Part shown: piece by piece, positions 2,729-58,749 of the stretch
How positions within the stretch are numbered: position 1 is the stretch's first letter
Layout: the number at the start of each line of letters is the position of its first letter
From: Rhodothermus profundi
Lineage (GTDB): Bacteria > Bacteroidota > Rhodothermia > Rhodothermales > Rhodothermaceae
Direction: 5' to 3'
Assembly: GCF_900142415.1 (NCBI RefSeq)
Contig: NZ_FRAU01000006.1
Coordinates: 1 to 64,000, forward strand
DNA length: 64,000 nt
Position numbers and translations under genes: made by a program
Notes under the pieces: generated by a model
What the model saw: only the letters and a program-made list of their open reading frames with translations
Told to the model about the DNA's origin: nothing
Databases searched by the model: none

Positions 2729-4231
2729 TTATTCGGGCGAATGGTCAAAGATGCATACTTCGCCAGTTACAGGAGAGGCATACACCAATCGTCGCACTTT
2801 TCCGTGCAGCGCATGCGCAACGGCAAGATACAGCCATACAGGTGCCTGGCCTGTCAACACCACTTCATTACCCTCACCTGCAAGTGTTTTTGCCTGCTCA
2901 AGATAAACTGACAGCTCCTCCAGTTTGGCCACTTCGCCATACAGGCTCTTCAAGTCGATCTCGACTCGTCCCCCGCAGAGCACATGGTCGGGAGCGTTAT
3001 GCATCAGCACCTCTAAACGTTTAGGTATTTCCTTGGTCCGCCGCGCGATGCTCTGAATGCTGGCAGCCCGCTGTCTCATCCCACAGTGCGCTACATCGTT
3101 CCGAAGCTGAAGGAGCCAATCCCACACCTGAACAACTTGTTCACGCTCAGGCAGGCTATCAAACCATGCAGGTACTTCCTCTGTCTTTTCTTGCTGAAGC
3201 TTTCGGACCGCTGCTCCCAGCACGCGTTCAATTTGCTGTTCGCGGTAATTTTTGTCCAGCCAATCGCCATCGCCTTTCTGGAGTACTACCCAGGAGACCA
3301 CCCACTCTCGCGCGAGCGTTACTGCCTGCATCCATAGGCCTTTTTTTACCAGGTGCTCAATGAGCGCCAGTTGTTTTTGCAGGTTTTCTCGGTCCAGTCG
3401 GTCCGGTGCATCGTGAGCAAACGGAGCGATTTCTGCGTGAATTTGCTCCAGAATGACCGCAAAGGGTTTTGCCCAGCGCTCCGCTTCTGAAGCAACCTCC
3501 TGTAAAACGGGCAGCAAGCGGGCTGCCTTATCCATCACATTGCGTGGACGCGCCAGATGTAGCGCCTGGGAAAAGGAGCGCAGCTGCTTAGCAACTCCCT
3601 GCAGACGCCTTGGCAAATCGTCACCTGCTCGCGTTTTCCATGCCTGTTGGTGGACACTCTCTAACCGTTCAGCCAGCAAGGTAGCGTCGCTGCGTTGCAG
3701 CATAAACTCCGTCCCACTTAGCCAGTCCAGCAAATCCAAGAGCAGTGTCAGGTCAAAGATGGGTGCCCGGTCTTCAGGTTGAGGCGGTTCGCGAAAAGGC
3801 TCGCGGGCTTCGTAGGCACCGTACACGATATGCCGAATGGTCACGCCTTTTGTCCGTCGCAAATACGCCGCGACGGCGAACACTATCATCGGGATAGAAC
3901 GAAAAGCGTGGGTGATGTCCAGAATAACCGTATCGCCCTCATCGACCGAAGAGGCAACACAATCGAAAATCTGCCAGAGTTCAGCTTCAGACCTACCTTC
4001 AGGGATATTCTCCGGTTGCAGTTTATTGCCCATTCGCTCCTTGAGCGACTGAAAATGCTCACGCGCTCTTGCCTGCGGCGTTACAAAAACCAGAATCTTT
4101 TCAGGTCGAAAGATGCGGGCAACTGCCTCAGGAAACAGGTGAGTTTGACACTTTTGACCGTCATGCCAGATGTAAGTGACGGTCTTATAAGGACCCGTGC
4201 CAAGAAACGTGAGCGCTTTCAAGGACGCCAT
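2729..4231 (-). CDS. CARF-HEPN (Csx1/TM1812-type) effector with Csx3-like C-terminal domain
   Basis: A 500-residue ancillary type III protein. Residues 1-145 form a Rossmann-like CARF domain of the TM1812/DxTHG group; the signature is DITHAFRS at 105-112. A helical region follows with R377-x4-H382 (RNDVAH), the active-site motif of HEPN ribonucleases. Residues 412-500 resemble Csx3 (Crn3), a ring nuclease for cyclic tetra-adenylate: GQAPVWLYLAVAHALHG aligns with the Csx3 GxxPxWL...AH segment. The Csx3 DPRLG stretch appears as SPVTG, so its conserved Asp seems lost. It would be activated by cyclic oligoadenylate from Cmr2 and cleave RNA. The tail may bind or degrade the activator. The gene overlaps cmr6 by 13 bp. 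Confidence 0.75.
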   Translation of the reverse strand: MASLKALTFLGTGPYKTVTYIWHDGQKCQTHLFPEAVARIFRPEKILVFVTPQARAREHFQSLKERMGNKLQPENIPEGRSEAELWQIFDCVASSVDEGDTVILDITHAFRSIPMIVFAVAAYLRRTKGVTIRHIVYGAYEAREPFREPPQPEDRAPIFDLTLLLDLLDWLSGTEFMLQRSDATLLAERLESVHQQAWKTRAGDDLPRRLQGVAKQLRSFSQALHLARPRNVMDKAARLLPVLQEVASEAERWAKPFAVILEQIHAEIAPFAHDAPDRLDRENLQKQLALIEHLVKKGLWMQAVTLAREWVVSWVVLQKGDGDWLDKNYREQQIERVLGAAVRKLQQEKTEEVPAWFDSLPEREQVVQVWDWLLQLRNDVAHCGMRQRAASIQSIARRTKEIPKRLEVLMHNAPDHVLCGGRVEIDLKSLYGEVAKLEELSVYLEQAKTLAGEGNEVVLTGQAPVWLYLAVAHALHGKVRRLVYASPVTGEVCIFDHSPE

Positions 4232-46971: not shown

Positions 46972-47137
46972 ATCTCATCAAGAACGACTGAGGGAACAGG
47001 CCCGATGACGTCGTAGCAACCGGGCATCTTCTACCGGCAGGAAGATGCCGCCTGGTGCTAAATCCTGCCCGGAGCGTGGGGCGGAAACAAGCGTGCGTTG
47101 CTGTTTCCCGAGCTGTGTCGTTCCGGGGAAGATGAGA
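46972..47137 (+). promoter_or_regulatory. SAM-I (S-box) riboswitch aptamer
   Basis: The core has the S-box signatures in order: CATCAAGAACGACTGAGGGA, GGCCCGATGA, GCAACC and GGTGCTAAATCCTGCCC. P1 forms between TCTCATC (46973-46979) and GATGAGA (47131-47137). A good P4 hairpin lies around 47080-47110 (GGAAACA...TGTTTCC). SAM binding should stabilise P1 and lower metB expression. Confidence 0.95.
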
Positions 47138-48454: not shown

Positions 48455-48556
48455 ATGCCGTCTATGCAGGTGCCAGGTTACCTTCCGCTGAGTGGCTGTC
48501 CGTGTTGTTGCTGCAACGCGGGAGGGGCCTGCTGTACCTGTAGATGCTGGCTTTGA
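48455..48556 (+). CDS. Cysteine-rich leader peptide of the siroheme operon
   Basis: A 33-codon frame that begins MPSMQVPGYLPLSG and then reads CPCCCC and, after NAGGA, CCTCRC, giving nine Cys codons in the last 19 positions. The first cluster lies at 48497-48514, immediately before the left arm of an antiterminator. The stop (48554-48556) precedes its right arm. This is the classical layout of an attenuation leader in which slow translation of the regulatory amino acid, here cysteine, permits read-through. The product itself is probably not functional. Confidence 0.85.
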   Translation: MPSMQVPGYLPLSGCPCCCCNAGGACCTCRCWL

Positions 48557-48613
48557 ATCCAGGCTATTCCTCTAATACAGCAGCCCCTCCCGCCATGCGG
48601 TGAGGGGCTTTTT
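48518..48613 (+). promoter_or_regulatory. Cysteine attenuator: antiterminator and intrinsic terminator before cobA
   Basis: The antiterminator pairs 48518-48527 with 48584-48593 and 48529-48536 with 48576-48583, 18 base pairs with one bulge. The competing terminator uses 48582-48593 with 48597-48609 around a CAT loop and ends in five Ts (48609-48613). The two structures share 48582-48593 and cannot coexist. A third pairing, between the leader start (about 48457-48471) and 48536-48551, could compete with the antiterminator when no ribosome is present. Confidence 0.85.
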
Positions 48614-55485: not shown

Positions 55486-55597
55486 GAGCCTATCGCCATT
55501 CGTTGAATCCCTGTCACTTTTTATCCTTTCTTCAAAAGACGTACCATCGGCACACTCAAACGATTTTCGTAGCAATTGCCTGGTGTACAGGGAGAAC

Positions 55598-55639
55598 TTT
55601 TCCGGTTCCCTTTCGTTTGGAGAGCAGAGTTTTCCGGTT
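55598..55639 (+). repeat. Duplicated 10-mer upstream of the cysteine leader
   Basis: TTTTCCGGTT occurs at 55598-55607 and 55630-55639, 32 bp apart, about three helical turns. The copies lie 20-60 bp before the leader peptide start and could be operator half-sites. Confidence 0.35.
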
Positions 55640-55641
55640 GT

Positions 55642-55823
55642 GCTATCCAGTTGTGTTTATGAGGTGGCTTTCGCCCGTGCACCGGTGTTGCTGTTGTTGT
55701 TGTGCCCGTCCAGTTGGAGGGGTAACAGGTGCGTGTGCACCGGCGAAAGCTCTGGATAGCCCATAGAGAAACCAAACGCCACGCACAGGTTGCCCCTCCG
55801 GAAGCTTCCGCGAGGGGTTTTTT
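55642..55823 (+). promoter_or_regulatory. Cysteine attenuator before cysM
   Basis: Three pairings are readable. The anti-antiterminator joins 55642-55650 with 55752-55760 (9 of 9 pairs) and 55667-55681 with 55736-55750 (14 of 15). The antiterminator joins 55716-55735 with 55780-55799, broken only by a 2-nt mismatch. The terminator joins CCCCTC (55793-55798) with GAGGGG, capped by the palindrome CGGAAGCTTCCG (55799-55810), and ends in six Ts (55818-55823). Antiterminator and terminator share 55793-55799. Confidence 0.87.
55659..55766 (+). CDS. Cysteine-rich leader peptide of the cysM operon
   Basis: A 35-codon frame starting MRWLSPVHR and followed by six consecutive Cys codons (55686-55703), with another Cys further on (GACAP). 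It ends at 55766, 27 bp before a terminator stem. The left arm of an antiterminator begins 13 nt after the last of the six Cys codons, as expected for ribosome stalling. The frame is open upstream to 55503, but this ATG lies nearest the Cys run. It matches the leader at 48455 in plan though not in sequence. Confidence 0.88.
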   Translation: MRWLSPVHRCCCCCCARPVGGVTGACAPAKALDSP

Positions 55824-55845: not shown

Positions 55846-56799
55846 ATGCTTACCGAAACAGCATCTGTGACCGTCGAGCCCCGGGCAGTTGCCCGCGCTG
55901 AGCTGCTTCGTGCTATCGGCCACACTCCCCTGATACGCCTTCGACGCGTGACGCGCCATTTGCCCGAAACTGTGGCCGTTTATGTAAAGGCCGAGCACTT
56001 GAATCCTGGAGGGTCTGTAAAAGATCGACCCGCCCTGCGCATGGTGCTTGAGGGACTGCGCAGTGGCGCGCTGCGCGAAGGACGGGTGCTCATTGATGCT
56101 ACCAGCGGCAACACAGGCATTGCCTATGCCATGCTGGGGGCCGCCCTGGGCTTTCCGGTAGCGCTGGCCATGCCGGCCAACGCCTCGCCTGAACGAAAGC
56201 GCATGCTTCAGGCCTACGGCGTGGAGCTCATCCTGACAGACCCCATGGAGGGAACAGACGGCGCCCAGCGCTACGTGCGCGCCCTTGTGCAACAGGAACC
56301 TGAGCGATACTTCTACCCGGATCAGTATAACAACGACGCCAACTGGCGCGCTCATTACGACGGCACCGGCGCCGAAATCTGGGAACAGACCGGCGGACGC
56401 GTCACCCACTTTGTCGCCGGGCTGGGCACAACGGGCACGTTCGTCGGGGTCAGCCGAAGGCTTAAGGCACACAACCCGGCCATCCGCTGTTACGCCCTGC
56501 AGCCCGACTCTCCCCTGCATGGACTGGAAGGGCTCAAGCACCTGGAAACGGCTATCGTGCCAGGAATCTATGATCCTTCGCTGGTAGACGAACACCTGAC
56601 CTGCTCAACCGAAGAAGCGTTCGAGATGACCCGCCGCCTGGCGCGCGAAGAAGGACTATTTGTGGGCCCCTCCTCCGGGGCCAATGTGGTAGCCGCCTTG
56701 CGCGTGGCCGAGCAACTGGAGCAGGGCGTTGTCGTCACTATCCTGTGCGATACCGGCGCGCGTTACCTGAGCGAATCGTTCTGGGAGGAAGGACCATGA
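55846..56799 (+). CDS. cysM: Cysteine synthase, CysM type
   Basis: A 317-residue PLP enzyme. The cofactor Lys is in NPGGSVKDRPA (about residue 48), TSGNTGIAYA binds substrate carboxylate, and GLGTTGTFVG binds PLP phosphate. The start at 55846 lies after the attenuator terminator; the longer open frame from 55729 would run through it and is rejected. It overlaps the JAMM peptidase gene by 4 nt. The downstream JAMM, carrier and activating enzyme indicate a CysM that takes sulfur from a thiocarboxylated carrier protein, possibly using O-phosphoserine, as in mycobacteria. Confidence 0.93.
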   Translation: MLTETASVTVEPRAVARAELLRAIGHTPLIRLRRVTRHLPETVAVYVKAEHLNPGGSVKDRPALRMVLEGLRSGALREGRVLIDATSGNTGIAYAMLGAALGFPVALAMPANASPERKRMLQAYGVELILTDPMEGTDGAQRYVRALVQQEPERYFYPDQYNNDANWRAHYDGTGAEIWEQTGGRVTHFVAGLGTTGTFVGVSRRLKAHNPAIRCYALQPDSPLHGLEGLKHLETAIVPGIYDPSLVDEHLTCSTEEAFEMTRRLAREEGLFVGPSSGANVVAALRVAEQLEQGVVVTILCDTGARYLSESFWEEGP

Positions 56800-57242
56800 A
56801 AATCAAAGCGACCTTGCTTGATCGAATCCGGGCCCACGGCGAAGCCACGTATCCAGAAGAGTGCTGCGGACTGTTGCTGGGCAAAAGTGGTCCAGACGGC
56901 AACCACGTGCTGGCCCTCTATCCGGTAGAAAACCGACACGAAGCGCAACGGGAGCGGCGCTACACCATCGCCCCAACCGACTATCTGGCCGCCGAACGCG
57001 CCGCCCGACAACAGGGCCTGGATGTGGTAGGCTTCTATCATTCCCACCCAGATCATCCTGCCCGGCCTTCGGCCACGGACCTGGCCGAAGCTACGTTTCC
57101 CGGATACACCTACGTAATTGTTGCCGTGCATCAGGGCCGGGCCGGTGAGCTGACCGCCTGGCACCTGGCCCCTGACCGCACCCGGTTTGAAGCCGAATCT
57201 ATCGAAATAGAACCCGAAACAACCGCTGTAGACCAAACCTGA
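56796..57242 (+). CDS. JAMM/MPN+ metallopeptidase (Mec-like)
   Basis: A 148-residue zinc peptidase. The JAMM signature is complete: a Glu in the EECCGLLLG segment and HSHPDHPARPSATD, which holds the two His and the Asp. In related systems such enzymes release cysteine from the CysO-cysteine adduct, or trim residues beyond the Gly-Gly end of a sulfur carrier. Both could apply here, because the next gene encodes a carrier with two extra residues after Gly-Gly. The start at 56796 overlaps the cysM stop. Confidence 0.9.
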   Translation: MKIKATLLDRIRAHGEATYPEECCGLLLGKSGPDGNHVLALYPVENRHEAQRERRYTIAPTDYLAAERAARQQGLDVVGFYHSHPDHPARPSATDLAEATFPGYTYVIVAVHQGRAGELTAWHLAPDRTRFEAESIEIEPETTAVDQT

Positions 57243-57251
57243 GCAGACCGT

Positions 57252-57548
57252 ATGGGCACGACGACCGCAACCGTAACGATTCGCATCCCTACACCGCTGC
57301 GTGGTTTTACGAACAACCAGGATGCCGTGGAAGTAAGTGGCACTACCGTAGGCGAAGCGTTGCAGCAACTGGTCGAACAGTTCCCGCGCCTGAAGCCCCA
57401 CCTGTTCAATGAGGAAGGACGCCTGCGCTCATTCGTTAACATTTACGTAGGCGACGAAGACATCCGCTATCTGCAACGGGAAGCCACCCCGCTTCAACCG
57501 GGCGCCGAACTCTCTATTGTGCCTTCCGTTGCCGGTGGACGTTTGTAA
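57252..57548 (+). CDS. MoaD/ThiS-like sulfur carrier protein (CysO type)
   Basis: A 98-residue ubiquitin-like carrier with the MoaD pattern IRIPTPLRGFTNN, TVGEALQQLVEQFP, FVNIYVGDEDIRYL and LSIVPSVAGG. The chain ends GGRL, so the Gly-Gly that must be adenylated and thiocarboxylated is not terminal. Removal of Arg-Leu, probably by the JAMM peptidase encoded 9 bp upstream, should be needed for activity. QbsE of Pseudomonas, with a short tail after Gly-Gly, is a known parallel. Position between JAMM and MoeZ supports a cysteine-making role. Confidence 0.9.
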   Translation: MGTTTATVTIRIPTPLRGFTNNQDAVEVSGTTVGEALQQLVEQFPRLKPHLFNEEGRLRSFVNIYVGDEDIRYLQREATPLQPGAELSIVPSVAGGRL

Positions 57549-57570
57549 CTCCAAAACCTGCCAACGCGCC

Positions 57571-58749
57571 ATGCCTGCAACAACGGCTGATATCACGCTG
57601 ACGCCGGAGGAGCTCCGGCGCTACAACCGCCACCTGATTCTGCCCGAAGTCGGACTCGAAGGCCAGAAAAAACTGAAAGCTGCTTCTGTACTGCTGGTCG
57701 GCGCAGGCGGCCTTGGCTCTCCCCTGGCGCTTTACCTGGCAGCCGCCGGCGTAGGTCGCCTGGGACTCGTCGACTTTGACGTCGTTGACGAGACCAACCT
57801 GCAACGCCAGGTGTTGCATGGCACCAAGGACGTAGGACGGCCTAAACTGGAGTCGGCACGTGATCGCATCCTTGATATCAACCCGCACGTGCAGGTCGAC
57901 CTCTACGAAACGCGCCTGACCAGCGAAAACGCTCTGGATATCATCAAGGAGTATGATCTGGTAGCCGACGGGACCGATAACTTCCCAACCCGTTATCTGG
58001 TTAACGATGCCTGCGTCCTGGCCGGTAAGCCCAACGTCTACGCCTCCATCTTCCGGTTCGAGGGTCAGGTGTCGGTCTTTGCCACGCCAGATGGTCCGTG
58101 CTACCGGTGCCTTTATCCGGAGCCCCCGCCCCCCGGCCTGGTTCCTTCCTGTGCCGAAGGAGGCGTGCTCGGTGTACTGCCGGGCATGGTGGGGACCATC
58201 CAGGCTACCGAGGTGATCAAGATGATCCTCGGGATCGGAACCCCGCTCATTGGCCGCCTCCTGCTCATCGATGCCCTGCATATGCAGTTTCGCACGCTCA
58301 AGGTGCGGAAAAACCCTGAATGCCCGATCTGCGGCGAACATCGCACCATCCACGAGCTCATCGACTATGAGCAGTTCTGCGGGCTGCCTCCGCGCAACGG
58401 TGAGGCCGCCCAGGCAGACGAAACCGTGCCCGAGATCACGGTGCACGATCTGAAAGCCCGCCTGGAGCGGGGCGACCGTCCCTTCATCCTGGACGTACGC
58501 AAACCCCACGAAGTGCAGATTGCCAGCATCGAACACGACCTGCTCATCCCAGTCGATGAGCTCCCTGAACGGCTCTCAGAGCTGGAACCGTACCGCGACC
58601 GCGAAATCATCGTGTACTGCCGCTCCGGAGCGCGTTCGGCCCGAGCCACTAAACTGCTCCGCGAAGCAGGCTTCCCCAACGTCAAGAATCTGAAGGGAGG
58701 GATCCTGGCCTGGAGCCAGGAAATTGATCCAAGTATCCCTCAGTACTGA
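57571..58749 (+). CDS. moeZ: Sulfur carrier adenylyltransferase/sulfurtransferase, MoeZ type
   Basis: A 392-residue two-domain enzyme. Residues ~12-265 are an E1-like MoeB domain: LVGAGGLGSPLALYLAAAGVG binds ATP, DGTDNFPTRYL follows, and zinc Cys pairs are CYRCLY and CPICGE. Residues ~290-392 are a rhodanese whose active Cys is in IVYCRSGARS. It adenylates the carrier's Gly-Gly end and loads sulfur from persulfide, supplying the cysM route. The ATG at 57571 is preferred to the longer open frame because it matches the family start. A bidirectional terminator closes the operon. Confidence 0.93.
   Translation: MPATTADITLTPEELRRYNRHLILPEVGLEGQKKLKAASVLLVGAGGLGSPLALYLAAAGVGRLGLVDFDVVDETNLQRQVLHGTKDVGRPKLESARDRILDINPHVQVDLYETRLTSENALDIIKEYDLVADGTDNFPTRYLVNDACVLAGKPNVYASIFRFEGQVSVFATPDGPCYRCLYPEPPPPGLVPSCAEGGVLGVLPGMVGTIQATEVIKMILGIGTPLIGRLLLIDALHMQFRTLKVRKNPECPICGEHRTIHELIDYEQFCGLPPRNGEAAQADETVPEITVHDLKARLERGDRPFILDVRKPHEVQIASIEHDLLIPVDELPERLSELEPYRDREIIVYCRSGARSARATKLLREAGFPNVKNLKGGILAWSQEIDPSIPQY

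Follow-up and report, generated by a model that had tools for sequence, protein, structure and literature searches.

Terminator-type attenuation is a textbook mechanism of transcriptional control. Outside Proteobacteria, Firmicutes, and Actinobacteria, to our knowledge, little has been learned about how cysteine synthesis is controlled. In Rhodobacterales, uORFC-8-2, which lies upstream of cysS and combines Cys codons in tandem with a U-run at its end, was proposed to be a transcription attenuator sensing Cys-tRNA (PMC8632094). Leaders with Cys codons have also been described in Actinobacteria, where they are without terminators (PMC1262725), and cysteine-responsive translation attenuation is described for the leaderless polycysteine sORFs of mycobacteria in the passages of PMC13236596 that cite Canestrari 2020. 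A survey of attenuators in 2010 noted that, of those predicted in Acidobacteria, almost none had an assigned function (PMC2965389).

The window analyzed here is a 64,000-nucleotide stretch of Rhodothermus profundi DNA. The original prediction placed at 55642-55823 a second, independent cysteine attenuator in front of a cysM-JAMM-carrier-MoeZ operon. The overall observation was confirmed from the sequence, from folding, and from an alignment within the genus, and both anatomy and comparison lend good support to a cysteine attenuator before this operon, as described below.

Anatomy of the cysM leader

The operon begins with cysM (55846..56799), which encodes a cysteine synthase (TIGR01136 above the cut-off, with 352.5 versus 344.15 bits, and PF00291). 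It is followed by genes for a Mec-like JAMM/Prok-JAB peptidase (56790..57242; PF14464), a CysO-like ThiS/MoaD-like sulfur carrier (57252..57548; PF02597), and a MoeZ-like ThiF-rhodanese fusion (57568..58749; PF00899 and PF00581). These genes and all of the features of the leader upstream lie on the forward strand. By position and annotation, the operon makes the amino acid that the leader would sense, and it would be under the control of the leader.

The leader ORF, MRWLSPVHRCCCCCCARPVGGVTGACAPAKALDSP (55659..55766), consists of 35 codons plus TAG, with its ATG at 55659 and its stop codon at 55764-55766. The six consecutive Cys codons that were originally reported in it are present at 55686..55703 and represent the putative sensor. 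Both the ATG and the Cys run are conserved in the genus, and the Cys codons show three synonymous and no nonsynonymous changes among six genus genomes. In G001, the most distant of the six genus sequences, an in-frame stop codon lies 10 codons 5' of the Cys run and leaves the conserved ATG as the sole remaining start, which rules out that the Cys run is part of a longer real gene. Judged by the synonymous-only change of the Cys codons and the G001 stop codon, the cysM leader is a genuine coding sequence, and it has the short ORF with clustered codons for the regulated amino acid that is expected of a cysteine attenuator. No Shine-Dalgarno-like sequence was found 5' of the leader ATG; a missing Shine-Dalgarno sequence is usual in Bacteroidota, to which the phylum of the leader is related. 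TGT/TGC repeats like the Cys run also occur elsewhere in the genome, and those examined are inside long ORFs.

A promoter-like element, GAGAACTTTT-N13-GTTT (55592..55618, forward strand), is conserved upstream of the leader, and we take it to resemble an ECF-type -35/-10 pair. Six of the seven genus genomes carry exactly one copy each, and in every case it lies directly 5' of the cysM leader. The element was not found in the seventh genome (G005), where the cysM match is only a fragment. Stretches of GAACTTTT also precede the cysM leaders of three compared loci (L010, L126, and L128), and a sigma-70 scan of the leader region gave nothing above chance. The presumptive promoter may answer in part the question of whether a transcript starts upstream of 55642, and its ECF-like form could possibly tie cysM to stress control.

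Folding of the leader transcript gave -83.2 kcal/mol versus a shuffle mean of -67.0 kcal/mol (z -3.9), which beats 200 of 200 dinucleotide shuffles. Three competing helices were evaluated across six aligned sequences from the genus. The antiterminator is formed by segment 2 (55716..55738), which starts 12 nt past the last Cys codon, and segment 3 (55778..55799), which overlaps the 5' arm of the terminator. It has 93% of its alignment cells paired, versus 38-49% when slid, and none of 200 shuffles of its 5' segment is as strong (z -5.6). Two of its pairs are changed on both sides (n = 6 genus sequences), a score that 19 of 500 shuffles reach, and the covariation within the genus is thin. The intrinsic terminator hairpin of segments 3 and 4 (55792..55818, with arms at 55792-55802 and 55807-55818) has 98.5% of its cells paired, versus 46-64% when slid, with almost no variation among the genus sequences. 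Its U-tract, TTTTTT (55818..55823), is invariant in the genus, and the terminator lies 22 nt upstream of cysM. The antiterminator and the terminator are mutually exclusive helices, and the region between the leader ORF and the first gene contains an intrinsic terminator overlapped by an antiterminator whose 5' arm is just after the codon run.

The third helix is the anti-antiterminator (1:2) helix, in which the conserved core of segment 1 (55666..55682) pairs with 55735..55751, which overlaps the antiterminator 5' arm. Of the six genus sequences, five conserve this core, which would sequester the antiterminator arm; in G001, several of its pairs are broken. An outer extension, in which 55642..55650 pairs with 55752-55760, is specific to the R. 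profundi genome, and its 55642-55650 arm is mostly unpaired in the remaining genus sequences. Three exclusive pairings had been proposed for the leader. The antiterminator (given as 55716-55735 with 55780-55799) holds and extends to 55738 and 55778, the terminator holds together with the six Ts after it, and the first pairing (55642-55681 with 55736-55760) survives in its inner part, the core, and falls away in its outer part.

From these elements we infer a mechanism of leader translation, stalling, and cysteine response in which the polarity of control and the effect on transcription would be as follows. RNA polymerase and a ribosome would begin together on the leader. When Cys-tRNA is scarce, the ribosome would stall in the six-Cys run, masking segment 1 and freeing segment 2 from 55716; with the usual ribosome footprint, a stall in the run leaves 55716 onward free because the antiterminator arm starts 12 nt after the last Cys codon. 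The 2:3 antiterminator would then form, the terminator would not, and cysM-JAMM-carrier-MoeZ would be transcribed. When Cys-tRNA is ample, the ribosome would move past the run and cover segment 2 up to the stop codon at 55766, and segment 3 would pair with segment 4, ending transcription at the U-tract. If the leader is not translated, the 1:2 helix would form, which would also permit termination.

Other cysteine leaders in the genus

A companion leader ORF, MPSMQVPGYLPLSGCPCCCCNAGGACCTCRCWL (48455..48556, forward strand), precedes the siroheme genes cobA and cysG(N), and each of the seven genus genomes has a Cys-rich leader at this place. On the same strand, its antiterminator helix, formed by GCGGGAGGGGCCTGCTGTA... 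with TACAGCAGCCCCTCCCGC, spans 48518..48593 and beats shuffles in seven of seven genus genomes (z -3.4 to -5.6), and its intrinsic terminator and U-tract lie at 48583..48613. The companion peptides diverge in the genus (CPCCCC..ACCTCRC, CCGCPCCC..ACCTCSLC, LCCGCRCC, and MCLCPCC). The claim that the two leaders are independent was not supported. Both have a terminator of the CCCCTC...GAGGGG type, and a genome scan found CCYCTC...GAGRGG-type terminators at four distinct sites, two of which are the cysM and cobA leaders. Since the shared type occurs at only four sites, a common origin through a duplicated terminator/antiterminator core appears as likely as a separate origin of the two leaders. 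Outside the genus, the cobA regions are mostly without a Cys leader. An exception is a locus from another family of the order (L159; G011:C147), in which a Cys-rich short ORF, MSDRCCRCMCCASCMC..., precedes cobA with a hairpin and a T-rich tail. The window also contains a SAM riboswitch (RF00162) at 46972-47082, before a cystathionine gamma-synthase-like gene, which places one SAM sensor and two putative Cys sensors within 9 kb.

A third Cys leader is located outside the 64-kb window (G000:C5:268865-268903; L266 about 3366-3404). It is a short ORF ending MLQVAGRCCCMG, approximately 200 nt upstream of a NirA-type sulfite/nitrite reductase gene, which is followed by cysH (APS/PAPS reductase). Its counterparts in the genus are MLSVGVRCCCMG and MLQVAGRCRCMC; the variant in G006 lacks that ATG. 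The peptide sequence of the third leader is itself conserved in the genus, and no U-tract terminator was seen, so this leader may work by translation or Rho and might be of the mycobacterial polycysteine sORF type.

A genome scan for at least four consecutive Cys codons, which had been suggested as a check, gave 63 pattern matches, among which only the two window leaders had both a short frame with a start codon and a credible terminator; such a scan would miss leaders with three or fewer consecutive Cys codons, such as the third leader, and the genome, a draft in 18 contigs, was sampled by pattern and by region. Eighteen other short Cys frames were examined in detail, and all are inside long ORFs. 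When the genus was scanned for three Cys codons with T5 after them, the recognized leaders among the matches listed were the two known ones. The candidates at C3:1236 and C3:213536 were checked, and neither was convincing as a Cys leader; the VAGRCCC pattern matches outside the genus were not convincing as leaders of sulfur genes. No conserved Cys leader was found upstream of ATP sulfurylase in the genus, and the cysE model had no member over the cut-off there.

The cysteine attenuation regulon suggested by the original prediction gains support from the genus-conserved leader at 48455 and from the third leader before the sulfite/nitrite reductase gene and cysH, and a small cysteine regulon in the genus is supported at the sequence level. 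Together, the three leader-bearing operons serve the formation of sulfite and sulfide, the supply of siroheme as a cofactor, and the synthesis of cysteine.

cysM upstream regions and alternative readings

For 99 cysM matches, as much as 380 nt of upstream sequence was compared; 80 of the loci came from named genomes and 19 from order-level relatives. A short ATG/GTG ORF contained at least four Cys in eight codons in 28 of the 99 regions, at least five in 24, and at least six in 13, with regions from related genomes not being fully independent. Dinucleotide shuffles of the 99 regions averaged 0.4 regions (maximum, 3) with at least four Cys and 0.025 (maximum, 1) with at least five. The reverse strand gave 1, 0, and 0 regions at the levels of at least four, five, and six Cys, respectively, and any other amino acid reached the level of at least five in no more than 5 regions. 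An intrinsic terminator was found in 22 of 29 regions with a Cys ORF versus 4 of 55 without one (Fisher p = 1.6e-10), a count to which the same dependence among related genomes applies and which includes 29 rather than 28 Cys-ORF regions because TTG starts and frames of other lengths were also allowed. No terminator was detected upstream of cysM at the Cys-ORF loci L015, L038, L044, L070, L073, and L077, and such ORFs are possible translation-attenuation variants. Seven Cys codons precede cysM at L038.

In 12 of 17 lineage representatives, the stretch that follows the Cys run forms a better pairing with the terminator 5' arm than shuffled sequence does (p ≤ 0.05), and the combined p of about 1e-12 is indicative only, as the 17 representatives were chosen by hand with approximately one per leader type. 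In the 5 other representative lineages, the antiterminator is no better than shuffled sequence. In other families, the 5' arm was mostly computed to start 0 to 15 nt past the Cys run, compared with 12 nt in the cysM leader here. The set of Cys leaders before cysM spans Rhodothermota, Acidobacteriota, and Ignavibacteria, and the leader peptides vary widely outside the Cys run, in sequence and in length between families, as shown by MRFITRCCCCCCPCCCTAGPG... in Roseithermus (L010), MPFLRTILACCCAMCCCAPG... in L126, MKLTRLKKQICCCCCKRHRLSFVVGKS in Pyrinomonadaceae (L033), and MINRAVYACCCCRICVDYP... in Ignavibacteriae (L041). Four acidobacterial loci (L017, L023, L033, and L057) have a common stretch, ATRTAGACTTTTTTGTA, just before the Cys leader and downstream of a TTGACA-like box.

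The JAMM, carrier, and MoeZ genes are 3' of cysM in 12 of 14 named Cys-ORF loci, and other sequence lies between cysM and JAMM in the acidobacterial loci L017, L033, and L057. At least one of the three genes is equally common near cysM without a Cys leader (60 of 61 loci), which indicates that the operon can exist without the leader.

The cysM leader is very probably a cysteine-responsive, ribosome-mediated transcription attenuator with trp-type logic. This reading is favored because Cys runs before cysM exceed chance and co-occur with terminators, because distinct lineages have the complement of the terminator 5' arm immediately past the Cys run, because the Cys codons change synonymously only and antiterminator pairs change on both sides, and because the distance from run to arm suits a stalled ribosome and the controlled genes make cysteine. 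Alternatively, a stall in the Cys run could reshape the RNA and expose the cysM start region, that is, act by translational attenuation as in mycobacterial polycysteine uORFs. The description of mycobacterial cysteine genes as translation attenuated, in the part of PMC13236596 citing Canestrari 2020, the terminator-less Cys ORFs before cysM in other phyla, and the third leader without a U-tract terminator are consistent with such control. However, the strong, conserved T6 terminator so close to cysM and its overlap with the antiterminator argue against it, as does the co-occurrence of terminators with Cys ORFs, and for the cysM leader it is unlikely.

Attenuation of transcription would be incidental if the leader ORF encoded a functional Cys-rich small protein, for example, one binding metal or with a redox role. 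The ORF is kept in the genus, as such a protein would be, but the variability of the peptide outside the Cys run between families and the position of the run close before the antiterminator arm in most families make this very unlikely. It is highly improbable that the terminator is constitutive and that the Cys codons are due to chance or to a low-complexity TTG/TGT repeat. Although the run is a TGT/TGC repeat with similar repeats elsewhere in the genome, this explanation is already contradicted by the comparative data: Cys is enriched over the 99 regions in the sense orientation only, the Cys codons change only synonymously, and leaders of quite different sequence keep Cys. A small-molecule riboswitch or thiol-sensing RNA instead of ribosome stalling is exceedingly improbable, in spite of the SAM riboswitch 8.7 kb upstream within the window, since Rfam 15 gave no credible match at the leader at the gathering or permissive threshold (four unrelated chance matches only) and since only Cys codons with a terminator and an antiterminator are in common across families.

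We consider it more probable than not that the genus has a cysteine attenuation regulon over three assimilation steps and that its cysM attenuator is kept before the CysM-carrier operon in at least three phyla with rapid sequence turnover, either inherited or repeatedly reinvented.

Relation to described attenuators

Cysteine attenuators are a known kind of regulatory element, and the cysM leader is a new example that is absent from Rfam. The gene set of the cysM operon is the same as that of the mycobacterial CysM-CysO-Mec-MoeZ pathway (PMC3227635 for MoeZR), which belongs to a different phylum, and a terminator-type Cys attenuator controlling the mycobacterial pathway was not found in the literature searched. 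An attenuator of the cysM operon in the phyla considered here was found neither in Rfam nor in the literature, which is weak evidence, as subscription papers were mostly outside the search. A cysteine sensor common to several such phyla and placed ahead of the sulfur-carrier pathway would be a direct, testable rule linking sulfur assimilation to the charging of Cys-tRNA. It also provides a search rule that is free of sequence similarity: a Cys-rich short ORF and a terminator whose 5' arm complements the stretch just after the Cys run.

The mycobacterial sORFs and the actinobacterial Cys leaders resemble the cysM leader in that several Cys codons in a row precede genes for cysteine biosynthesis. 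In the cited passages on those leaders, no conserved terminator is reported, and translation attenuation or Rho is suggested, whereas the cysM leader has both a terminator and an antiterminator; its intrinsic terminator sets it apart from the mycobacterial polycysteine sORF type. uORFC-8-2 shares with the cysM leader its Cys codons in tandem and its final U-run, but it targets a cysteinyl-tRNA synthetase gene, occurs in alphaproteobacteria, and has two Cys codons. The cysM leader probably does not belong to that family, as its target is cysM rather than cysS and no such family was among the Rfam 15 matches. The trp/his-type attenuators of Enterobacteria, with trp also in Corynebacterium and Streptomyces (PMC1262725), likewise have a run of regulatory codons, a competing antiterminator and U-tract terminator, and an extra 1:2 helix. 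Unlike them, the cysM leaders use Cys codons, precede a cysteine/sulfur operon, and are found in Rhodothermota, Acidobacteriota, and Ignavibacteria.
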